The notes under the pieces were generated by a model, which searched no databases, had not been told where the DNA came from, and saw nothing but the letters and a program-made list of their open reading frames with translations. Below, piece by piece: positions 2-13,228 of a DNA stretch of 64,000 nt. The stretch's first letter is position 1; each line of letters starts with the position of its first letter. The stretch is from positions 1 to 64,000 of the forward strand of contig NZ_BJNE01000015.1 in NCBI RefSeq assembly GCF_006539525.1, given 5' to 3'. The translations under genes were made by a program, and so were the position numbers. The stretch comes from Glutamicibacter nicotianae. GTDB lineage: Bacteria > Actinomycetota > Actinomycetes > Actinomycetales > Micrococcaceae.

Positions 2-187
2 AAGGCTGCTTCCGCATCTGATGCGGCCAAACCAGCTGAGGCGCCAGCAAAGGACCCGGCACCGGCTGCGGCCAAGCCAGCTTCTGCTCCGGCTAAGGCT
101 GCTTCCGCATCTGATGCGGCCAAACCAACTGAGGCGCCAGCAAAGGACACGGCACCGGCGGCGGCCAAGCCTGCTGCTGCACCGAAC
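2..187 (+). repeat. 93-bp in-frame tandem repeat (two units visible)
   Basis: Units 2-94 and 95-187 are near-identical and encode a 31-residue Ala/Pro/Lys-rich unit (begins KAASASDAAKP). The array probably continues to the left of the window. It looks like a disordered linker made by repeat expansion. Confidence 0.85.
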
Positions 188-1096
188 GCTGCACTAGCCA
201 AGGAAGCTGCAGATCCCAAGGGCCCAGCTGATGTGCTGGCACGGGCAGCTGACGCTGCCAAGGCGGCCGATGAGGCCACGCTAGTCAAGGCATCGGCAAA
301 GGATGCCGAGGACGACCGGACCTTTGACTCAGAAGCAACCCAGGATCCAGCGCAATACGAGCAGGAAGTTGTCTCGGAGGAACTCTCGCTTGCCGGGCAG
401 CTGCTCGGAGCCAGAGGTGCGGCAGAGACCGTTTACGATACCGGCCAGGGCGATGACCAGGACACGATTATCAAGTCCCGTCCGGCAGGTCCTGCCATCG
501 CTGGGCCTCCCGCCGAACCAGCTGACGACGAGCACACGATCATCCGCGGCTCCAGTGTTCCGAAATCCAGGCCTTCATCAGGGTTGGATGCCAAGGACGG
601 TACAGAAAGTTCGGTGTCCCTGAATGAATTCATCCTGGCGCGCTCTTGCTCCAAGCGGCACCCCAATCCACCCACCGCGTCGACGTGCAGGCAATGCGGC
701 GAGCGATTGACCGCCCAGGCGCAGCAGGTTCGCAAGCCTGCCATGGGCCGCATGATTGTCAGCGACCACGGCGGTACCCGCGAATACGCCCACGAGCTGA
801 ACCGCTCGGTGGTTCTCGGACGCCAGCCAAGCGCAGGAGCCGTCAAATCCGACAGCGAACCCCGCCTGCTGAAGGTTGAAAGCCCCAGCGGCGACATCTC
901 CCGTTCGCACCTGCACGTGCGTGTGGAGGGATGGCATGTGCAACTGGTGGACCTTGGTGCGACCAATGGCACCGTGCTGCTGCGCGAAGGGCAGCGGCCA
1001 CGGCGCCTGTCCCGCCACCAGGAGATCATGCTGATCAACGGCGACGTCGCTGACTTGGGTGATGGCGTCAGCATCCGCTTCGAGGATCTGCCGTGA
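2..1096 (+). CDS. FHA-domain protein with zinc ribbon, 5'-truncated
   Basis: The frame is open from the left edge, so the true start lies outside the window. Domains seen in order: an Ala/Pro/Lys-rich low-complexity region with a 31-residue tandem repeat (bases 2-187), an acidic linker, a short zinc ribbon (Cys codons at 647, 686 and 695, with a His after the first Cys, in the actinobacterial pattern C-x-x-x-H-x-NP...CxxCG), and a C-terminal FHA domain with VVLGRQP, SRSHLHV and DLGATNGT motifs. FHA domains bind phosphothreonine, so this is probably a substrate or adaptor of the kinase encoded next, whose GTG start overlaps this stop by 4 bases. The function beyond phosphopeptide binding is unknown. 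Confidence 0.85.
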   Translation, partial: KAASASDAAKPAEAPAKDPAPAAAKPASAPAKAASASDAAKPTEAPAKDTAPAAAKPAAAPNAALAKEAADPKGPADVLARAADAAKAADEATLVKASAKDAEDDRTFDSEATQDPAQYEQEVVSEELSLAGQLLGARGAAETVYDTGQGDDQDTIIKSRPAGPAIAGPPAEPADDEHTIIRGSSVPKSRPSSGLDAKDGTESSVSLNEFILARSCSKRHPNPPTASTCRQCGERLTAQAQQVRKPAMGRMIVSDHGGTREYAHELNRSVVLGRQPSAGAVKSDSEPRLLKVESPSGDISRSHLHVRVEGWHVQLVDLGATNGTVLLREGQRPRRLSRHQEIMLINGDVADLGDGVSIRFEDLP

Positions 1097-2643
1097 GTCC
1101 AAAGCGCGCGCCAGCTCCGGCACCGCAAATACCGGGATTCGCGTACGTCAAGCCACTGGGTACCGGCGGATTCTCCGATGTCTATCTTTACGAGCAGCAC
1201 CGGCCCAACCGCAAGGTGGCGGTCAAGGTGCTGCTGGCTGATGTCAGTGATGAGGAAGCCCGCCAACGTTTCGAGGCCGAGGCCAATTTGATGGCCCAGC
1301 TGTCCACCCATCCTTATATCGTCACGATCTACCAAGCGGAGATCACCGATGACGGACGTTCCTATCTGGCCATGGAGTATTGCTCCCGGCCTTCCTTGGA
1401 TGCCCGTTACCGCCGCGGTGTCTTGAGCATCGATGAAACGCTGACCTTGGCCATCCAATTGTGCTCAGCGGTCCATACCGCGCATCTAGCGGGCATCGTG
1501 CATCGAGACATCAAGCCGGGAAACGTGCTGACTACTGACTACAACCGGCCGGCCCTGACCGACTTCGGCATCTCGGGAACCATCGGATCGCACACCGCAG
1601 GGCTGTCGGTGCCATGGTCCGCCCCGGAAGCGTTCAGCGGCGACACGCCTCCGGGCGTGCGCATGGACGTATACTCGCTCGGTGCCACGATCTATACAGT
1701 TCTGGCAGGGCATTCGCCGTTCGTCCGGCCGGGACAGGATAATGCGCAGCCAGTGCTCATTGAGCGGATCTGCAATTCTCCATTGAAACCGTTGGAGCGG
1801 CTTGACGTTCCCGAGTCGCTGAACCAGGCGTTGTCGGTAGCCATGGCGAAGAACCCGGCTTCGCGATTCGGCTCGGCCGCCGAATTCGCCCGCTCCCTGC
1901 AGCGAATCCAGATCGAGTTGGGCTTCTCGGTCACTCCTTTTGAGGTTATCGAAGAACCTGCCGAAGCGGCTGAGGAGGAGGACGGTGAAAGCACTCGCGT
2001 CCGCAATGTCATTTCGATCAGCGACGTGCAGCGTCCGCTGCCTTCTGCACCGATGATTTCCTCCGTTCCCGGGCAACACGCACGGCGGGTACGACCGTCA
2101 GCGCCGATACCGCGGCTGCACATGCCGAAGGAACCTGCGCCGGCTCCGAACCCAGAAGATAACGCGCAAGACGAATCCGGAACGCCATCGGCCAAGCCGG
2201 CAGAGCCGAAGCAACGCCAGAGCCTGCCGAAGGTATTCATCGCGGTGGGCATAGTGCTGTTCATCTTGGTTGGCGGCGCCTTCATTGCAAACATGTTCTT
2301 GCCGGAGCAGGAAGCCGCGCAGCGTACCGGCCCGCCCATTACCGCCACGGACGGTCCCAAGGACGCATTAGTTGGCGGCACCGTCCCCAAGGTGGATAAT
2401 TTCGAGTACTCTACGGTGGGAGAAACGGTAACCTTCCGCTGGTCCAACCCGGAACCGAATAAGGATGACCATTACCGTTGGGCTCCCATTACCGCAACGG
2501 AAACGGGAGAGTTCAAGCAGACGAAGTCTCCCAGCGCGACTACCGACATCGGCGAAGGCGGGCAAACTTGTATCGAGGTCAAGCTCGTGCGCGATGATGG
2601 ACGTATCTCGGATGGAGCACGGTTCTGCACCGGAGCAGGTTAA
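1093..2643 (+). CDS. membrane Ser/Thr protein kinase (PknB-type) with extracytoplasmic domain
   Basis: 516 aa from a GTG that overlaps the upstream stop (GTGA), implying translational coupling. Kinase domain residues about 17-275: glycine loop GTGGFSDV, VAVKVL with catalytic Lys45, HRDIKPGN (Asp139) and DFG (157-159). The segment before APE reads SVPWSAPE rather than the common TPxYMAPE, and the activation loop is short. An acidic and then Pro-rich juxtamembrane linker leads to one membrane helix at about 381-403 and an outside domain of about 110 residues resembling an FN3 fold, with two Cys (QTCIEV, RFCTG) that could form a disulfide. It probably senses something outside and phosphorylates cytoplasmic targets, the flanking FHA proteins being likely partners. 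Confidence 0.93.
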   Translation: MSPKRAPAPAPQIPGFAYVKPLGTGGFSDVYLYEQHRPNRKVAVKVLLADVSDEEARQRFEAEANLMAQLSTHPYIVTIYQAEITDDGRSYLAMEYCSRPSLDARYRRGVLSIDETLTLAIQLCSAVHTAHLAGIVHRDIKPGNVLTTDYNRPALTDFGISGTIGSHTAGLSVPWSAPEAFSGDTPPGVRMDVYSLGATIYTVLAGHSPFVRPGQDNAQPVLIERICNSPLKPLERLDVPESLNQALSVAMAKNPASRFGSAAEFARSLQRIQIELGFSVTPFEVIEEPAEAAEEEDGESTRVRNVISISDVQRPLPSAPMISSVPGQHARRVRPSAPIPRLHMPKEPAPAPNPEDNAQDESGTPSAKPAEPKQRQSLPKVFIAVGIVLFILVGGAFIANMFLPEQEAAQRTGPPITATDGPKDALVGGTVPKVDNFEYSTVGETVTFRWSNPEPNKDDHYRWAPITATETGEFKQTKSPSATTDIGEGGQTCIEVKLVRDDGRISDGARFCTGAG

Positions 2644-2661
2644 GCAAGGTAGGCATAAGCG

Positions 2662-3363
2662 ATGAGTGAAGTAACTATCGAGTACTGCGGGCAGTACTAT
2701 CCTGTCCAGGACGGCACGCCCTTCACCATCGGACGTGAAGGCGACCTCGCAATCGACGACAATCCGTACTTGCACCGGCACTTCCTGACGATTAGCAAGC
2801 ACAGCGGGCTGTGGTGGCTCAACAACGTGGGCAGCCGGCTGACCGCGACCATTGCGGATCGAACCGGCGGCCTGCAAGCCTGGCTGTCGCCGGAGTCGAG
2901 CCTGCCGCTGGTGCTCAATCGGGTGGGCGTGGTGTTCACTGCCGGTCCCACCACCTATGAGCTGTCGATTCATGTCGCGCAGCCGGCATTCCGCCAGGAC
3001 TACCTGGAATACGATGCCTGCGGCGAAACCACCATTGGGCCGGTGCTGCTGACCAGTGCCCAGCGGGCGCTGGTTGTGGTCTTGGCTGAGCCGATGCTGC
3101 GCCGCGAAGGCACCGGGCTGAGCTCGATTCCCACCAGCGCGGCGGCTGCCGCACGGCTGGGGTGGGGAATTACGAAGTTCAATCGCAAACTCGATAACGT
3201 GTGCGACAAATTGGACAAGGCGGGCGTTGCCGGACTGCGCGGGGGACCGGGAAAACTGGCCACCAACCGTCGCGCTCGGCTGGTGGAGCACGCCGTGAGT
3301 TCGCATCTGGTCACCCGTGCCGATTTGGCCATCTTGGATGCCGAAGTACCCGACGAAGACTAG
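2662..3363 (+). CDS. N-terminal FHA-domain protein of unknown function
   Basis: 233 aa. Residues about 1-100 look like an FHA domain (PFTIGREGDL near the N-terminus, then HRHFLTI and NNVGS), although the usual TNGT turn is degenerate. The C-terminal half (about 120-233) has alternating helices and an Arg-rich end resembling a winged-helix or effector-like domain, but I cannot name a family. It follows the kinase by 18 bases with an AAGGTAGG-type ribosome site, so it is probably co-transcribed and reads the kinase's output. It ends convergently with the carboxylase genes. Confidence 0.8.
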   Translation: MSEVTIEYCGQYYPVQDGTPFTIGREGDLAIDDNPYLHRHFLTISKHSGLWWLNNVGSRLTATIADRTGGLQAWLSPESSLPLVLNRVGVVFTAGPTTYELSIHVAQPAFRQDYLEYDACGETTIGPVLLTSAQRALVVVLAEPMLRREGTGLSSIPTSAAAAARLGWGITKFNRKLDNVCDKLDKAGVAGLRGGPGKLATNRRARLVEHAVSSHLVTRADLAILDAEVPDED

Positions 3364-3713: not shown

Positions 3714-5324
3714 TTACAGCGGAATGTTGCCGTGCTTCTTCGGAGGCAGGGTCGCATGCTTCTCGCGCAGCGCGCGCAGACCGCGAACCAGCTGGAAGCG
3801 GGTCTCGCTCGGGGCGATGACCGCATCCACGTAGCCCAGCTCAGCGGCCTGGTAGGGGTTGAGCAGTTCGGCCTCGTAGTTGTCGATGATCTGCTTGCGG
3901 CGGGCCTCGACGTCTCCGCCTTCGGCTTCCACCGCGGCCAGATCGCGGCGGTAGAGGATGTTCACCGCGCCCTGGGCACCCATCACGCCGATCTGCGCGG
4001 TAGGCCAAGCCAGATTCAGGTCTGCGCCCAGCTTCTTCGAGCCCATCACGATGTACGCTCCGCCGTAGGCCTTGCGGGTGATCACGGTCAGCTTCGGCAC
4101 GGTGGCCTCGGCGTAGGCGTAGAGCAGCTTTGCACCGCGGCGGATGATGCCCTGGAACTCCTGGTCCTTGCCCGGCAGGAAGCCCGGCACGTCCACGAAG
4201 GTGAGGATCGGGATGTTGAAGGCGTCGCAGTTGCGCACGAAGCGGGCGGCCTTTTCCGAGGCGGCAATGTCCAAGGTGCCGGCGAACTGCATTGGCTGGT
4301 TGGCGACAATGCCCACGGTGCGGCCTTCGATGCGGGCGTAGCCAATCATCACGTTGGGTGCGTAGAGCGACTGCATCTCGAAGAAGTGCTCATCATCGAC
4401 AACCGACTCGATCACGGTGCGCATGTCATAAGGCTGGTTTGCCGAATCCGGGATGAGCGTATCGAGCTCCAGGTCCTCGGCGGTGATATCCAGTTCTTCA
4501 TCGAATTCGGCAATCAGCGGATCCGAGAGGTTGGAGGACGGGAGGAAGTCCAGCAGTTCCTTGCAGAACTCCACAGCGTCTTCCTCATCGGAGGCAAGGT
4601 AGGTGGCGGTACCGGTATTGGCGTTGTGCTGGCGGGCGCCGCCCAGGGTTTCCATGTCGATTTCCTCGCCGGTCACCGTCTTGATGACGTCCGGGCCGGT
4701 GATGAACATGTGGCTGGTCTTGTCGACCATGATCACGTAGTCGGTCAGCGCGGGGGAGTAGGCGGCGCCGCCGGCCGATGGGCCCATGATCAGCGAGATC
4801 TGCGGGACAACGCCCGAGGCGTGGACATTGTTGCGGAAGATGTCAGCGAACATGGCCAGGGACGCGACGCCCTCCTGGATGCGGGCACCGCCGCCATCGA
4901 GGATGCCGACTACCGGGCAGCCGTTGCGCAGCGCGAATTCCTGGACCTTGACGATTTTCTCGCCGTTGACCTGGGACAGCGAGCCGCCGTAAACGGTGAA
5001 GTCCTGCGAGTAGACGGCCACCAGGCGGCCATCCACGGTGCCGTAGCCGGAGACCAGGCCATCGCCCAATGGCTTCTTCTTCTCCATGCCGAAGGCGGTG
5101 GAGCGGTGGACTGCAAGTGCGTCGAACTCGACGAAGGAGTCTTCGTCCATGAGCATTTCAATGCGTTCGCGGGCAGTGTGCTTGCCGCGGGAGTGCTGCT
5201 TTTCGATCGCCGCTTCGCCGCTTGGCGCTTCAGCGAGCTTCTGGCGGCGGCGGAACTCAGCAAGCTTTCCGGCGGTGGTGGACAGGTCGATTGACTCGGC
5301 TGCCTCAGTTCTGCCCTGCGTCAT
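3714..5324 (-). CDS. accD: acyl-CoA (propionyl/acetyl-CoA) carboxylase carboxyltransferase beta subunit
   Basis: 536 aa, full length for AccD/PccB. Two crotonase-like halves are visible: N-terminal ([28 protein letters not shown]) and C-terminal ([37 protein letters not shown]). The last motif builds the acyl-CoA/carboxybiotin site. It moves CO2 from carboxybiotin to acetyl- or propionyl-CoA for fatty acid or odd-chain metabolism; substrate preference cannot be read here. An AAGGGAG ribosome site precedes the ATG. The biotin-carrying alpha subunit is not in the window, but biotin ligase lies 1.1 kb away on the other strand. Confidence 0.95.
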
Positions 5325-5354
5325 GCCTTCGACTCCCTTGAGTTGTCTTCAATG

Positions 5355-5434
5355 TGTAGGAATGGCACAAGAAAAATGCCATCCAAGCCAGTCTAGCTGG
5401 GGAAACAGCTCTTTCGGTTGTAGGAATCTTACAA
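5355..5434. promoter_or_regulatory. paired operator-like repeats upstream of accD
   Basis: TGTAGGAATGGCACAA (5355-5370) and TGTAGGAATCTTACAA (5419-5434) share TGTAGGAAT-N3-ACAA and start 64 bp apart. The second is a near-palindrome (TGTA...TACA). An ATGGCA (5362-5367) / TGCCAT (5377-5382) inverted repeat overlaps the first. They sit in the divergent region between accD and the SDR gene and may bind a regulator. No known factor is assigned. Confidence 0.4.
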
Positions 5435-5506
5435 AATGGCCCGATATCTGGTGCGTGGCACGCCAGAATAAGTTACTGATCGGTAGCTTAGTGGCGGATC
5501 ATCGCG

Positions 5507-5512
5507 TAATCT
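5507..5512 (+). promoter_or_regulatory. -10 hexamer TAATCT, predicted leaderless SDR mRNA
   Basis: TAATCT ends 7 nt before the SDR start codon and no Shine-Dalgarno sequence is visible. This is the TAnnnT spacing expected for leaderless actinobacterial transcripts. Confidence 0.5.
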
Positions 5513-5519
5513 GTATCAC

Positions 5520-6377
5520 ATGACTACTGAATCGCGCACTCTTATCGCGCCCGTTCCCGGCAACCTGAAGAACCGTACCATCCTGATGAGCGGGGGCAGC
5601 CGCGGCATCGGCCTGGCCATCGCGTTGGCCGCAGCCCGGCAAGGGGCCAACGTGGTTCTGCTCTCCAAGACCGATACACCTCACCCGACGCTGGAAGGGA
5701 CCATCCATACCGCCGTTGCGCAGATTGAGGAAGCCGGCGGCCAGGGCTTGGCCGTTGTCGGCGATGTCCGCGTGGACGCCGACGTGCAGCGCGCCGTGGA
5801 GGAAGCGGTGGCAAAATTCGGCGGCATCGACATCGTGGTCAACAACGCCTCGGCCATCAACCTGGCCAAGACCGACCAGGTCGATATGAAGCGCTACGAC
5901 CTGATGCAGGACATCAACGTCCGAGGCACCTTCCTGCTGTCCAAGACCGCGCTCCTGTACCTGCGCGCCTCCGAGCATGCCCATATCCTGACCCTCTCCC
6001 CGCCACTGAACCTGGACCCCAAGTGGGCAGGGCAGCATCTGGCCTACACCATGGCCAAGTACGGGATGTCGCTGACCACCCTTGGGCTGGCTGAAGAGCT
6101 GAAGGAAGACAGCATCGGGGTGAACTCGCTCTGGCCTGAAACCCTGATCGACACCGCAGCAATCCGCAACCTGCCAGGCGGGCAGAAAATGGTCCAGGGC
6201 GCACGCGACGCTTCGGTCGTGGCAGACGCGGCCATGGCAATTCTTGCCAGCCCGCCCGCGGGCGTCAGCGGCAATTTCTTCACCGACGGCCAGGTGCTGA
6301 CCTTGGCCGGGGAAACGGATCTGGAGAAGTACACCCTGAACCCGCAGATCCCGCTGGTCCAGGACATCTTCTTGTAA
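5520..6377 (+). CDS. short-chain dehydrogenase/reductase (HSDL2-like)
   Basis: 285 aa. Rossmann cofactor motif SGGSRGIG at residues 24-31, NNASA after the fourth strand, and active-site Tyr/Lys as YTMAK in the stretch after TLSPPL, with Ser in the expected place. The pattern (PPLNLDPKWAGQHLAYTMAKYGMS) matches the SDR group containing HSDL2 and related bacterial oxidoreductases of unknown lipid or acyl substrates, usually using NADP(H). It is divergent from the acyl-CoA carboxylase genes, which hints at fatty acid metabolism, but the substrate is not readable. The start is supported by a -10 hexamer 7 nt upstream. Confidence 0.88.
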   Translation: MTTESRTLIAPVPGNLKNRTILMSGGSRGIGLAIALAAARQGANVVLLSKTDTPHPTLEGTIHTAVAQIEEAGGQGLAVVGDVRVDADVQRAVEEAVAKFGGIDIVVNNASAINLAKTDQVDMKRYDLMQDINVRGTFLLSKTALLYLRASEHAHILTLSPPLNLDPKWAGQHLAYTMAKYGMSLTTLGLAEELKEDSIGVNSLWPETLIDTAAIRNLPGGQKMVQGARDASVVADAAMAILASPPAGVSGNFFTDGQVLTLAGETDLEKYTLNPQIPLVQDIFL

Positions 6378-6422
6378 GCGGTCAAGCGGGGTAAAACAGG
6401 GAATAATGGGCGGCCGGTGCCA

Positions 6423-6428
6423 TAGGGT
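6423..6428 (+). promoter_or_regulatory. -10 hexamer TAGGGT, predicted leaderless birA mRNA
   Basis: TAGGGT ends 7 nt before the ATG at 6436. It favours that start over the in-frame ATG at 6406, which lies upstream of this hexamer. Confidence 0.45.
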
Positions 6429-6435
6429 TGGAGAT

Positions 6436-7302
6436 ATGGAAAACCCGTATGGCACCGACCGCGCTGTTCTCGATCCCCGGATCTTCAATGAGCTCACCGC
6501 CCCGTTGGATTTGGGGCTGGTCAATCTCAAGCCAACCTCCGGTTCTACGAATACCGAGCTGGCGCAACTGGCCAGCACCGGCGAGGCCGGACATCTCAGC
6601 GTGTACTACACCGAGCACCAGCAGGCCGGCAAGGGGCGCTTGGGCCGTGAATGGGTGACCCCGGCAGGATCTTCCCTCACCGTCAGCGTCCTGGCCGTGC
6701 CCGGACCTGGCTTCCCTCCCGAATCCCTCTCCTGGTACACCATGCTGGCGGCGCTGGCCTGGAGCCGGGCGGCCGAGAATACCTGCGGCGTTCCACTGGG
6801 CATCAAATGGCCCAACGACCTCTTGGCTGGCGAGCAGAAAGTCTGCGGCATCCTGGCGCAAATGGTTCCTGCCGGCAACGGCTATGGCGTGGTGGTCGGG
6901 ACCGGAATCAATGTGAACCAGAGCCGGGAGGAACTTCCGGTGGCTACCGCGACATCCCTGCGGCTGGCCGGTGCGAAGAACCTGAACCGCACCGAATTGC
7001 TGGCTGAGTACCTGAAGCAATTTGCGGCTTTGGACCGGGGATTCCGCCAAGTCGGCGGCATGGCGCAGATGCCGTTGCCTGGAAACAACGGGAAATCCTT
7101 GCACCAGCTGGTCAGCGCCAAGCTGGCCACGCTGGGACATGACGTGCGTGTGGAATTCCCTGACGGGTCCACGCTGGTGGGCACTGCCGTAGAGCTGGGC
7201 ACCGATGGCTCGCTGGTGCTGGAACACGGCACCGGGCAGCGTGAACATGTGCTGGCAGGCGACGTGCACCACGTGCGGCGCGCCGACGGAAAGTATGCCT
7301 AA
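6436..7302 (+). CDS. birA: biotin--[acetyl-CoA-carboxylase] ligase
   Basis: 288 aa from ATG 6436; an upstream in-frame ATG at 6406 would add ten residues. Motifs: SGSTNTEL, biotin/ATP loop GKGRLGREW, KWPNDLL, GVVVGTGINVN, and a C-terminal SH3-like domain (VEFPDGSTLVGTAVEL). It attaches biotin to the carrier domain of acyl-CoA and pyruvate carboxylases. There is no N-terminal winged helix, so this is a monofunctional ligase and not an E. coli-type BirA repressor. It follows the SDR gene by about 60 bases and is near accD/accE, its likely client pathway. Confidence 0.93.
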   Translation: MENPYGTDRAVLDPRIFNELTAPLDLGLVNLKPTSGSTNTELAQLASTGEAGHLSVYYTEHQQAGKGRLGREWVTPAGSSLTVSVLAVPGPGFPPESLSWYTMLAALAWSRAAENTCGVPLGIKWPNDLLAGEQKVCGILAQMVPAGNGYGVVVGTGINVNQSREELPVATATSLRLAGAKNLNRTELLAEYLKQFAALDRGFRQVGGMAQMPLPGNNGKSLHQLVSAKLATLGHDVRVEFPDGSTLVGTAVELGTDGSLVLEHGTGQREHVLAGDVHHVRRADGKYA

Positions 7303-7388
7303 CCCGGCTTGGGTATTGGCCCGGGACTAGTATTGGAAGAGACGACCGAAGCACTCAGCCGGGAACAGGAGGGACGAGGAACAACACG

Positions 7389-7937
7389 ATGAAGTTGCCG
7401 CTGCATGAAAGGGAACGAATGATCATCAAAACTCGTGAGCATTCCCGAGTGCTGCGCCAGCCCGTGGGGGCCTTCCTCGTCTTGACCGCACTATGCACGT
7501 TTTCGCTTGGCTATCTTTCCCGGGATGATCTGTCGGACTGGCTGGCTTCCAATGCAAATGTGTGGATGATCGTTGCGGTAGTCCTTTGGGCCGCGCTGGT
7601 GCTCATCTGGAGCGTGATTCCCTGGGCCCGGTGGCTGCGCAGCCGCATCGTGCTGACTACCGAGCGGATCATGTTCCGGCCGACGTATAACGACGGCAAG
7701 CTGCAATCTGTAGGATTATTTACAGTTCGCGACCTGGTCGCGCACAGCAAGGCGAAAAATGCCATGACGCGTGCGGGAACCTTGGATATCGTGCTGAACC
7801 AGGGATACGTGCGGCTCACGCATGTGCCCTCGGTACAGTATTTCCGTTCCCTGGCCATGGAGGCGATGGCGAACCTGCGCAGCAGCCAGAGTATGGCGCA
7901 CACCGAAACGACGAACAGTGAGGGCATGGGGGCATGA
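7389..7937 (+). CDS. bacterial PH-domain membrane protein
   Basis: 182 aa with two membrane helices in the N-terminal half (about 25-47 and 56-80, the second containing VWMIVAVVLWAALVLIW) followed by a bacterial PH-like domain (SRIVLTTERIMFRP... VGLFTVRDLVAHS... GTLDIVLNQGYVRLTHV). Family members are membrane-anchored proteins of mostly unknown role. A good AGGAGG-type site precedes the ATG. Its stop overlaps the adenylate cyclase start (ATGA), and the next gene is a PP2C phosphatase, so the three are probably one signalling operon. Confidence 0.82.
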   Translation: MKLPLHERERMIIKTREHSRVLRQPVGAFLVLTALCTFSLGYLSRDDLSDWLASNANVWMIVAVVLWAALVLIWSVIPWARWLRSRIVLTTERIMFRPTYNDGKLQSVGLFTVRDLVAHSKAKNAMTRAGTLDIVLNQGYVRLTHVPSVQYFRSLAMEAMANLRSSQSMAHTETTNSEGMGA

Positions 7938-9145
7938 GCACCGAGCACACCAACACACCTCGGGCAGACTCTCCGCAGTCCGCCGCCGAGGCTGTCCGTG
8001 GCGCCCGCCAGCACGCTCCCGCGGCAACCCCCGCCGAATCGGATCCAATTCTCGAACTTGCCGAGGCCATGGAAGGCCCGCTGCGCATTCCGGCCCACAC
8101 CCCCGAGGCTGTCCGCGACACCGTCGCCTCGCTGGAAAAACGGCTCATCGGCGGCCAGCGCGAATTCCGCCGCCGCGAAGTCGCCTCCGAGGCAGGGGTC
8201 TCCCTGCACTCGGCACGCAAGCTGTGGCGCGCCATGGGCTTCCCGGAACTCAGCGATGACGAAGTGTTCTTCACCGAGGCCGACAAGAAAGCCCTGGGCA
8301 CCATGGTGGGCATGGTCCGCGAAGGCACGCTGACCGAGGAAACCGCCATCTCGCTGATGCGTTCGGTGGGCCAGATGACCGACCGCATGGTGGTCTGGCA
8401 GATCGAGGCCCTGGTCGAAGACATGATCGCCAACCAGAACCTGTCCGACCGCCAGGCCCGCCGCCAGCTGTTCAGCCTGCTGCCTGAAATCATCCCCGCC
8501 ATCGAGGACCTGCTGCTCTACTCGTGGCGCCGCCAGCTGAACTCCGCCGTGCACCGCATGGCCTTGCGCGTGGAAACCGGCGTGGCCGCCTACAACCAGG
8601 ACCGCGGCGAGGACGATGGCGGCACCCCGTTGCCGCTGGCCCGTGCGGTGGGCTTCGCCGACCTGGTCTCCTACACCTCGCTGTCGCGGCGCATGAACGA
8701 GCGCACGCTGGCCCAGCTGGTCCAGCGTTTCGAGGCCAAGTGCGCGGAAATCATTTCCGTGGGCGGCGGCCGCCTGGTCAAGACCATCGGCGATGAAGTG
8801 CTCTACGTGGCAGAAACCCCGCAGGCCGGCGCGCAGATCGCGCTGTCCCTGTCGCGCGAGCTGGCCAAGGACGAGCTCTTCCCGCAAACCCGCGGAGCGG
8901 TGGTCTGGGGCCGGCTGCTCTCGCGCCTGGGCGATATCTACGGACCGACGGTGAACATGGCGGCCCGGCTGACCTCGCTGGCCGAGCCCGGCACCGTGCT
9001 GACCGATGCGATTACCGCGAATACGCTGCGCAATGATGTACGCTTCGTGCTCACCGCCCAGGAAATTACCGCGGTGCGCGGCTTCGGGGATATCCAACCC
9101 TACGAACTCTCGGCAGGCGAGGGAGCAGGACTGGTGATTGACTGA
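7934..9145 (+). CDS. class III adenylate cyclase with Rv1264-like N-terminal regulatory domain
   Basis: 403 aa. Residues about 40-225 are an all-helical regulatory region (FRRREVASEAGVSLHSARKLWRAMGFP and following helices) resembling the pH-sensing domain of mycobacterial Rv1264. Catalytic domain about 235-395: metal ligands Asp243 (GFADLVSYT) and Asp287 (IGDEVLY), Lys283 and Asp334 (GDIYG) for adenine choice, and the transition-state pair Asn341/Arg345 (NMAARL). All catalytic residues are present, so it should make cAMP as a homodimer. The start overlaps the PH-protein stop; the TGA overlaps the PP2C start by one base. Confidence 0.93.
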   Translation: MSTEHTNTPRADSPQSAAEAVRGARQHAPAATPAESDPILELAEAMEGPLRIPAHTPEAVRDTVASLEKRLIGGQREFRRREVASEAGVSLHSARKLWRAMGFPELSDDEVFFTEADKKALGTMVGMVREGTLTEETAISLMRSVGQMTDRMVVWQIEALVEDMIANQNLSDRQARRQLFSLLPEIIPAIEDLLLYSWRRQLNSAVHRMALRVETGVAAYNQDRGEDDGGTPLPLARAVGFADLVSYTSLSRRMNERTLAQLVQRFEAKCAEIISVGGGRLVKTIGDEVLYVAETPQAGAQIALSLSRELAKDELFPQTRGAVVWGRLLSRLGDIYGPTVNMAARLTSLAEPGTVLTDAITANTLRNDVRFVLTAQEITAVRGFGDIQPYELSAGEGAGLVID

Positions 9146-10101
9146 TGGCTAATGAACCAGCCCCGGTTCCCTTCATCCTCGCCGCGGCGGGCCTGACGGA
9201 CGTGGGACGCAAGCGCTCGCAGAACCAAGACCGTATCCTGATGCACGACATCGTGTACGCGGTTGCCGACGGCATGGGCGGGCATGAAGCCGGCGAGGTG
9301 GCCAGCCAGCTTGCGGTGGAAACCATGGAAGAAATCTGCACCTTCGCCAATAAGACCTCGGTGCGGAAACTGCCCTCGGTGCCGGATGTCCAGCGGCAGG
9401 TGCAGCTGGCCGATGACCGCATCCGCGAAGCGCTTGAATCGCGCGGCGGCACCACCCTGTGCGCCCTGGTGCAGATCAAGACCCCCAGCAAGGGCCGGGA
9501 CAGCGTGACCGCTCCGCTGGCCGCCGTGCCGCCGTGGACCTCCAGCTTCGCAATGACGCAGAATACCGACGTGATTTCCAAGATCACTCCGCAAATGCTG
9601 GAGAACCACCGCGCCAATTTGGCGCCGGCTACCGCGCCGCTGCCGGTGGCCACCGAGGAAGTCCCGAGCCTGCTGCTGGTCAACGTGGGAGATTCGCGCG
9701 GCTATCGGCTGCGCGACGGTGCGCTGCAGCAGCTGACCCGCGACCACTCGGCCGTGCAGGAAATGGTGGATGCCGGGCAGATCACCGAGCTGGAAGCGCG
9801 CAACCATCCGCACCGGAACCTGATTACCCGCGCCCTGGGCGCAGGCGCCGAAAGCCAGCCGGACGTCACCGTCCTGCAGCCACGCATCGGCGACCGCTAC
9901 ATGCTGTGCAGCGACGGGCTCTCCGGCGAATTGACCGAGGACATTTTGCAGACCCTGCTGGTGAACTACAAGGACCGCACCGAAGCGGCCCGGATTCTCA
10001 CTGCGGCTGCGCTGGAAGCCGGCGGCCGGGACAACATCGCAGTGATCGTGATTGACGTGCTGGCAGCCGAACCCGCACCAGCGGACGCACCTGGGAACTA
10101 G
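9145..10101 (+). CDS. PP2C-family Ser/Thr protein phosphatase, soluble
   Basis: 318 aa. PP2C metal-site motifs: SQNQDRI (Asp29), ADGMGGHEAG (Asp42/Gly43), GDSRGYRL, SDGLSGELT and GGRDNIAVIVID. There is no membrane helix, unlike PstP. About 70 residues that are Pro/Ala/Thr-rich are inserted between GGTTLCALV and LLLVNVGDSRG, which is longer than usual. It would dephosphorylate Ser/Thr-kinase targets, perhaps including those of the kinase at 1-2.6 kb. It is co-translated with the adenylate cyclase. Confidence 0.92.
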   Translation: MANEPAPVPFILAAAGLTDVGRKRSQNQDRILMHDIVYAVADGMGGHEAGEVASQLAVETMEEICTFANKTSVRKLPSVPDVQRQVQLADDRIREALESRGGTTLCALVQIKTPSKGRDSVTAPLAAVPPWTSSFAMTQNTDVISKITPQMLENHRANLAPATAPLPVATEEVPSLLLVNVGDSRGYRLRDGALQQLTRDHSAVQEMVDAGQITELEARNHPHRNLITRALGAGAESQPDVTVLQPRIGDRYMLCSDGLSGELTEDILQTLLVNYKDRTEAARILTAAALEAGGRDNIAVIVIDVLAAEPAPADAPGN

Positions 10102-10118
10102 GGCTCCAAGCCAGCTAA

Positions 10119-12425
<2,307 letters not shown>

Positions 12426-12427
12426 AT

Positions 12428-13228
12428 ATGGACCGCGCAGTAACCCACGATCCGCTGGTGATGGTGGCCCGCCGGGCTGCCGCCGCCGGCGCCGAAGTAC
12501 TTGGCCGCCGCGACGAATCGCAGTTCAACCTCACCGACAAGTCGGCGGCAGGGGACTGGGTCACCGACTTCGACCGCGCCGCCGAGGAAGCGATTCGCGA
12601 GGCCATTGTGACCTCCCGGCCCAACGACGAGTTGACCGGCGAAGAATATCCCAGCGCCAAGCCGGTGCATCCCAGCGGGCTGCGCTGGAGCATTGATCCG
12701 CTGGATGGCACCACGAACTTCGTGCGCAACATTGCCTACTACTGCTCTTCGGTGGGCGTCTGCCAGCGCAACGATGATGGCAGCGAGACCTGGCTGGCCG
12801 CGGCCATCGTCGCCCCTGCCTTGCAGGTGGAGTACTTTGCCGGCAAGGGATTAGGCGCATGGAAACTCGACCTGCGTTCCGGAAAGCTCACCCAGCTCAC
12901 CGGACCCGAGGAATCGGAAACCAGGATCCTGGCCACCGGCTTCGGCTATGATTCCGGGCGCCGGCAGTTCCAAGCCGAGGTGCTTGGGAAGATGCTTGAG
13001 GACTATGTGAATGTGCGCCGGCTCGGCTCGGCTGCGCTGGATTTGTGCCTCGTGGCCGAGGGGTCTTTGGACGCCTACGCCGAATACGGCACCCAGGAGT
13101 ATGACTGGGCCGCCGGCGCGCTGATTGCCGAGGAAGCAGGATGCCAGGTTGGCCGGCCCATCAGCAATCCGGGCTGGCAGTACGCCGGATTGGTGGACCC
13201 GGCTAAGCTCACGGAGCCTGGCGCTTAA
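12428..13228 (+). CDS. inositol monophosphatase family protein
   Basis: 266 aa from the ATG 2 bases after ligA. Motifs of the FIG superfamily: GEEYP (metal Glu), WSIDPLDGTTNFV (metal Asp residues) and YDWAAGALIAEEAG near the C-terminus. It probably dephosphorylates inositol-1-phosphate or a related sugar phosphate (histidinol phosphate and PAP are alternatives in this superfamily). Its TAA overlaps the stop codon of the opposing gene by two bases. Confidence 0.9.
   Translation: MDRAVTHDPLVMVARRAAAAGAEVLGRRDESQFNLTDKSAAGDWVTDFDRAAEEAIREAIVTSRPNDELTGEEYPSAKPVHPSGLRWSIDPLDGTTNFVRNIAYYCSSVGVCQRNDDGSETWLAAAIVAPALQVEYFAGKGLGAWKLDLRSGKLTQLTGPEESETRILATGFGYDSGRRQFQAEVLGKMLEDYVNVRRLGSAALDLCLVAEGSLDAYAEYGTQEYDWAAGALIAEEAGCQVGRPISNPGWQYAGLVDPAKLTEPGA

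Follow-up and report, generated by a model that had tools for sequence, protein, structure and literature searches.

A predicted PH-fold gene paired with an adenylate cyclase behind birA in Glutamicibacter nicotianae, and the later addition of a PP2C phosphatase

We begin by considering what has been described for the closest systems. Bacterial cAMP was first reported in 1963 from the culture filtrate of Brevibacterium liquefaciens, as related in a passage of PMC3938503, and the titles of Lynch 1975 and Peters 1991, as cited in PMC2447327, name a pyruvate-stimulated adenylate cyclase from this bacterium. Taxonomic listings give Brevibacterium liquefaciens as another name of Glutamicibacter nicotianae, and the organism of the first bacterial cAMP report now falls in the genus Glutamicibacter. 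For Streptomyces coelicolor, the part of PMC7674942 that treats the cyclase gene cya (SCO4928) states that its deletion abolished antibiotic production. The section of PMC5775200 on the cAMP output of an Arthrobacter strain reports no significant adenylate cyclase regulation under high oxygen, a result that has no bearing on the locus considered here. The bifidobacterial PFNA cluster is given, in an extract of PMC8430577, as pkb2, fn3, aaa-atp, duf58 and tgm, with prpC and fha in some species. The trio that concerns us, a gene for a PH-fold membrane protein followed by an adenylate cyclase gene and a PP2C phosphatase gene, was not found described in our literature search, most subscription papers lying outside its coverage.

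The trio lies in a stretch of 64,000 nucleotides from a soil bacterium (positions 1 to 64,000 of the forward strand of contig NZ_BJNE01000015.1, assembly GCF_006539525.1), which we call the window. The features of the locus are collected in Table 1. An earlier note on this DNA had taken the three genes as coupled through stop-to-start overlaps of 4 bases and then 1 base. Its coordinates and overlaps are exact, and with both overlaps present the coupling is supported. On the outer sides, 86 bases separate the end of birA from the PH start and 47 bases separate the PP2C stop from the ligA frame. Upstream of PH, the element ACTAGTAT is a possible promoter element of the operon; outside Glutamicibacter it gives weak look-alikes in two loci only (L115 and L117). 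A scan for sigma-70 promoters from 5200 to 12700 found none, and 3 terminators were counted against 5.8 expected, with none between the trio and ligA. CRP-type sites in the window amount to 8 near-matches against 18.8 expected, none of them adjoining PH.

Table 1. Features of the PH-cyclase-PP2C locus and its flanks, in window coordinates.
Feature	Position	Strand	Basis or remark
Ser/Thr kinase of PFNA-like cluster, upstream of accD	1093..2640	+	PF00069; matches kinase in a relative's PFNA-like cluster
accD-type carboxyltransferase, older neighbour	3714..5324	-	PF01039; synteny
Short-chain dehydrogenase, found at many family loci	5520..6377	+	PF00106
birA, biotin protein ligase, older neighbour of the PH-cyclase pair	6406..7302	+	TIGR00121; synteny
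ACTAGTAT, possible -10 region	7326..7333	+	Upstream of PH; kept in the Glutamicibacter loci examined
Predicted PH-fold membrane protein, bPH_2-like	7389..7937	+	ATG 7389, stop 7937, read from ORFs
ATGA, cyclase start over PH stop (4-base overlap)	7934..7937	+	From sequence
Class III adenylate cyclase, 403 aa	7934..9145	+	ATG 7934, stop 9145; PF16701 + PF00211
Cyclase helical regulatory domain, about aa 68-201	8135-8536	+	PF16701
Cyclase catalytic domain, from about aa 236	8639-9142	+	PF00211
TGATG, PP2C start over cyclase stop (1-base overlap)	at 9145	+	From sequence
Soluble PP2C (PPM) Ser/Thr phosphatase, 318 aa	9145..10101	+	ATG 9145, stop 10101; PF13672
PP2C insert, about 60 residues, about aa 113-172	9481..9660	+	Alignment
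ligA, NAD-dependent DNA ligase, flanking gene	10149..12425	+	NF005932

We turn our attention to the same genes in the relatives. Within the family Micrococcaceae the cyclase is found in 119 of 120 genomes (32 genera), the exception being an 85% complete genome, while some PP2C is present in all 120 and a direct PH match in 112. Two sets of family loci are compared: 40 loci chosen by hand over all 32 genera, and at least 80 named loci from one scan, which overlap the first set. The PH gene sits directly upstream of the cyclase at 39 of 39 assessable loci in the first set and at 79 of 79 assessable loci of 80 named loci among the matches listed; the remaining locus in each case meets a contig end. 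The PH profile behind these counts was partly built from the 40-locus set, and for members not picked up by BLAST the interval from birA to the cyclase was inspected by eye. A PP2C directly follows the cyclase at 19 of the 40 loci and at 41 of 74 assessable named loci among the matches listed. PFNA-type genes follow it at 16 of the 40 (L034, L035, L037, L038, L040, L048-L051, L054-L056, L059, L061, L062 and L070) and at 32 named loci among the matches listed, and neither kind is found there at 5 of the 40 and at 4 named loci among the matches listed. The objection that the genes are rarely adjacent in relatives therefore fails for PH and cyclase and is half borne out for the PP2C. Packing within the PH-cyclase pair is also tighter than chance: at 90 of 118 family loci (overlapping sets, among the matches listed) no more than 60 bases separate the PH stop from the earliest possible cyclase start, and true starts may differ. 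Two labels in these data deserve mention. A contig labelled Sporosarcina beigongshangi (L138) carries an Arthrobacter-like birA/PH/cyclase/Fn3 locus, probably through contamination or a wrong label, and one Glutamicibacter member (L113) is filed as Arthrobacter sp. MYb229.

Twenty loci from the order, outside the family, have accD in 17 cases, birA in 19 (16 by a stricter test), PH in three and an adjacent PP2C in none. The cyclase does not need PH everywhere, since 17 of these 20 loci are without it and in most the cyclase keeps its place after birA. A response regulator and a histidine kinase, often with purK, come after the cyclase in several order families (L091, L092, L094, L102, L108, L109); they stand where the window has the PP2C and ligA. 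A search of the class with the PH protein of an order locus (L107) gives a match in 153 of 197 genomes. At 20 class PH loci, chosen by hand for long contigs and family spread, birA ends about 320 bases or less ahead of PH in 16, and in 9 the gene directly after PH is the cyclase, with one further cyclase about 1.8 kb downstream; no PP2C match was obtained at these 20 loci. In one family of the class with genomes of 7-10 Mb (f37, probably Streptomyces), the cyclase directly follows birA, without PH, in 5 of 5 genomes, one of which (G443) has a second cyclase without birA. We conclude that accD-birA-PH-cyclase is an old block, present also in other orders of the class, from which PH is missing in several lines. 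Mycobacterium tuberculosis presumably keeps accD5-birA-PH (Rv3280, Rv3279c, Rv3278c).

Conserved adjacency can persist through history alone. One may ask whether these are three separate useful genes, kept between birA and ligA by history, with a coupling of transcription and translation only. Such an account fits the order loci, 17 without PH and all 20 without the PP2C, as well as the several origins of the PP2C at this site (see below) and the five of 40 family loci where the cyclase is followed by no PP2C and no PFNA gene. It does not fit well, however, with a PH-cyclase pairing that is without exception in 118 assessable family loci (among the matches listed), that recurs at nine of the 20 loci from other orders, and that in 90 of the 118 (again among the matches listed) brings the end of PH close to the earliest cyclase start or across it. 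We consider three independent genes unlikely, though by no means far-fetched, and take the PH-cyclase pair as a real unit within a metabolic neighbourhood.

The first member of this pair matches no family in a Pfam search with the window protein, while bPH_2 (PF03703) is matched by 29 of the 39 members of alignment A1, which joins the window protein with 35 other Micrococcaceae loci and 3 order loci. An AlphaFold2 model built from 60 sequences (pLDDT 89.3, pTM 0.73) predicts two long helices, at about residues 19-43 and 56-84, which read as hydrophobic in the sequence, then PH-type strands within residues 87-146 and a C-terminal helix. With this model as the query, PH and PH-like chains top the lists of both Foldseek (best E 1.4e-3, none at or below 0.001) and VIA (best Z 9.6), scores that we regard as moderate; a sequence search of solved structures returned nothing up to E 1. 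The membrane PH fold proposed in the earlier note is supported by the predicted model, the fold lists and the two hydrophobic-looking helices.

The cyclase has clearer relatives. Pfam finds PF00211 at 41.2 bits and the regulatory domain Ad_Cy_reg (PF16701) at 29.8 bits, where the cut-off is 28.6. The residues that mark class III, D243, K283, D287, D334, N341 and R345, are invariant in 19 of 19 aligned rows; among them we assume the two metal aspartates, the ATP-type lysine and aspartate, and the transition-state asparagine and arginine. The closest solved structure is Rv1264 (1y10), at E 1.3e-20 by sequence and 8.5e-34 by a profile alignment over both domains. The N-terminal helical domain homologous to that of Rv1264 is therefore present as the earlier note had it, with PF16701 above its cut-off and the profile alignment spanning both domains.

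The same note went further and proposed, from the combination of the three genes, a pH or stress signal at the membrane that links cAMP to protein dephosphorylation; as a model this calls for a pH switch of the Rv1264 type. The rank of Rv1264 as the top solved structure across both domains, and a PF16701 score above the cut-off, would agree with such a switch, but the PF16701 match barely passes, pyruvate is the known effector in the genus (from the titles cited in PMC2447327), and the PP2C is an inconstant member of the trio. The histidines of the window cyclase are 5, 27, 55, 92 and 207 only, leaving the catalytic domain with none, and no conserved histidine was found in the alignment, where histidine reaches at most 32% of the 19 rows in any column. 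This absence argues against Rv1264-like pH control in terms of the aligned residues, although other groups could still serve. Sensing through conserved histidines was dropped as a candidate, such residues being absent from the 19-row alignment. The pH-sensor label is weak, unsupported by the histidines and set against the origin of the pyruvate-stimulated enzyme in this genus, and we regard the pH-switch reading as quite improbable.

The next question is which described enzyme the window cyclase corresponds to. Each of 18 Glutamicibacter genomes (18/18) has one PF00211 match (E at most 0.001); many of these are weak, about 26 bits, so that a divergent second cyclase could be missed. Because B. 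liquefaciens is G. nicotianae by synonymy and each genome gives a single match, the window cyclase is very probably the orthologue of the pyruvate-stimulated enzyme of B. liquefaciens. Our literature search found no account of how that enzyme is controlled in the cell. The steady presence of the PH gene at its side suggests that the cyclase responds to more than pH, with carbon and lipid metabolism as the input.

We now consider the third gene. The window PP2C scores 202.5 bits against the Stp1 model, below its cut-off of 230, and its structural model aligns with PstP (2cm1) at Z 29.4 over 224 residues. Asp42, Asp183, Asp257 and Asp296, which we take to form the metal site, are invariant in 33 rows, as is expected of the PPM fold, and by its model the phosphatase core is ordinary. 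The earlier note had also pointed to an atypical insert of about 70 residues; it is real, and at about 60 residues close to that length. In the model the insert is poorly ordered (block pLDDT 43 to 73, residues 121-170), with two short helices only, at 143-146 and 149-159. Among the aligned sequences it occurs only in Glutamicibacter and Paeniglutamicibacter, being longer in the latter, and it is absent at that place from the aligned PFNA, PstP and other adjacent PP2Cs. A TDV motif is kept in 9 of 9 complete insert-bearing proteins (one alignment). Within the window, positions 9565-9600 encode this TDV followed by ITPxML, the latter conserved in Glutamicibacter, amid an otherwise variable loop. 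TDV/ITPxML may be a docking or phosphorylation motif.

The source genome has three PP2Cs. Besides the one adjacent to the cyclase there are PstP and a third that belongs to a PFNA-like cluster on contig C27. Where a PFNA-like cluster occupies the post-cyclase site in other genomes, it runs Fn3-MoxR-DUF58-transglutaminase-PP2C-kinase. This site has undergone repeated loss or gain of the large PFNA cluster, with the PP2C often left behind. In the source genome, positions 1093-3360 of the window hold a kinase and an FHA-like gene (so called by reading, as it has no Pfam match) whose counterparts lie in a relative's PFNA-like cluster, so the cluster seems to be split by a contig break. Its parts would be the C27 end (L087, G000) and window positions 2-3360, in the order Fn3/Ig protein, MoxR, DUF58, transglutaminase, RDD-FHA and PP2C, then kinase and FHA-like gene. 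One other genome (G075) has the whole PFNA-like cluster just upstream of accD (L086).

A tree was built from 65 of 94 PP2C rows, 28 loci having been dropped (five long branches and 23 by thinning). In it the clade that contains the window PP2C is made up of Glutamicibacter and Paeniglutamicibacter sequences alone (99/99), the remainder being held together at 99/96, and PFNA PP2Cs are interspersed with the adjacent ones from Arthrobacter-like genera. A single clade of all cyclase-adjacent PP2Cs is rejected (p-AU 1.07e-10, or 3.89e-58 when the Sinomonas rows L177 and L183 are counted as cyclase-adjacent). A quick tree of all 94 rows likewise scatters the adjacent PP2Cs, with 13 changes, 7 of them forced by starred branches. 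As judged from these trees, the cyclase-adjacent PP2Cs have more than one origin.

It is conceivable, in this situation, that the window PP2C is what remains of the PFNA prpC or a sister to it, working with Ser/Thr kinases and unrelated to cAMP. The nesting of the Arthrobacter-like adjacent PP2Cs among PFNA PP2Cs, the rejection of a single clade, and the presence in the source genome of a PFNA-like cluster with its own PP2C all lend weight to this. The Glutamicibacter/Paeniglutamicibacter clade, however, stands apart from the PFNA set, and the window-type PP2C persists where the PFNA transglutaminase is missing. With the PFNA-type transglutaminase as a proxy, matches above 250 bits are found in 7 of 32 genomes searched, including two chosen as positives, and only weak ones (under 81 bits) in ten more. 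Two of six Glutamicibacter genomes have it; G023, G051 and G095 lack it and G112 gives a 48-bit match only. The adjacent PP2C is there by coordinates in all six, with or without that gene. We rate a PFNA sister as a serious possibility, somewhat short of even. The narrower idea of a PFNA relic is rejected for the window PP2C, whose clade in the tree is separate, though the length of its branch calls for caution; because that clade is well supported outside the PFNA set, the gene is not a recent relic. Beside the PH-cyclase pair, then, the PP2C is a later, patchy and lineage-specific addition, and the notion of the trio as one system is unsupported, the PP2C having been gained or kept separately and the adjacent PP2Cs not forming one clade. 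The first reading of the locus was in sum partly right: coupling, PH fold, helical domain and insert stand, whereas the pH sensor and the single three-gene system are unsupported.

Our preferred explanation, which we put at about an even chance, takes accD-birA-PH-cyclase as an old actinobacterial block for metabolic signalling, with the PP2C added in this lineage, pyruvate-type control of the cyclase and PH as its partner. In this view metabolites of central carbon metabolism, such as pyruvate for the nearest enzyme studied, would act on the helical N-terminal domain of the soluble cyclase and so bring about cAMP synthesis. Translational coupling would place the synthesis of the two-helix PH-fold protein immediately ahead of that of the cyclase, for which it would serve as partner or anchor at the membrane, and the cAMP formed would work by way of the usual CRP. 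For the PP2C, the probable role is to undo what the Ser/Thr kinases of the cell have phosphorylated, either on the PH-cyclase pair or nearby, without dependence on a PFNA-type cluster. The pyruvate control, the PH-cyclase contact, the CRP step and the PP2C substrates are what we infer here. A more specific form, in which PH is a dedicated partner that gates or anchors a pyruvate-responsive cyclase, the ancient module reports carbon entry to lipid synthesis (AccD, BirA) as membrane-located cAMP, and a PP2C with a TDV loop, recruited in Glutamicibacter and Paeniglutamicibacter, resets it by removing phosphate, is rather unlikely. Lying beside the cyclase at every assessable family locus and recurring in other orders, the PH gene is a testable candidate regulator.

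We close by setting the locus against the known systems. The fold of PstP-type PP2Cs is that of the window PP2C, and D42, D183, D257 and D296 are kept; the PstP frames of the relatives are, however, at least 464 residues long against 318, they sit on another branch of the tree, and the window protein has the 60-residue loop. The bifidobacterial PFNA cluster agrees in its gene types and its PP2C with the cluster found in the same region of many Micrococcaceae, but the window PP2C forms its own clade and, unlike the PFNA prpC, lies after the cyclase, outside the fn3-aaa-duf58-tgm cluster and outside the PFNA-like cluster of its own genome. SCO4928 of S. coelicolor is likewise a cAMP cyclase, and the order birA-cyclase is seen in f37, probably Streptomyces; f37 differs in having no PH between the two, and the likeness lies in the gene order of f37. 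Rv1264 of M. tuberculosis (1y10/1y11, 2ev1) aligns with the window cyclase over both domains and agrees in the catalytic pattern, yet it is distant, the regulatory-domain match of the window protein is near threshold, and histidine is unconserved in the window cyclase family. The B. liquefaciens cyclase shares its genus with the window cyclase, and a single class III match recurs across the 18 genomes; its length presumably agrees with the 403 residues of the window protein.
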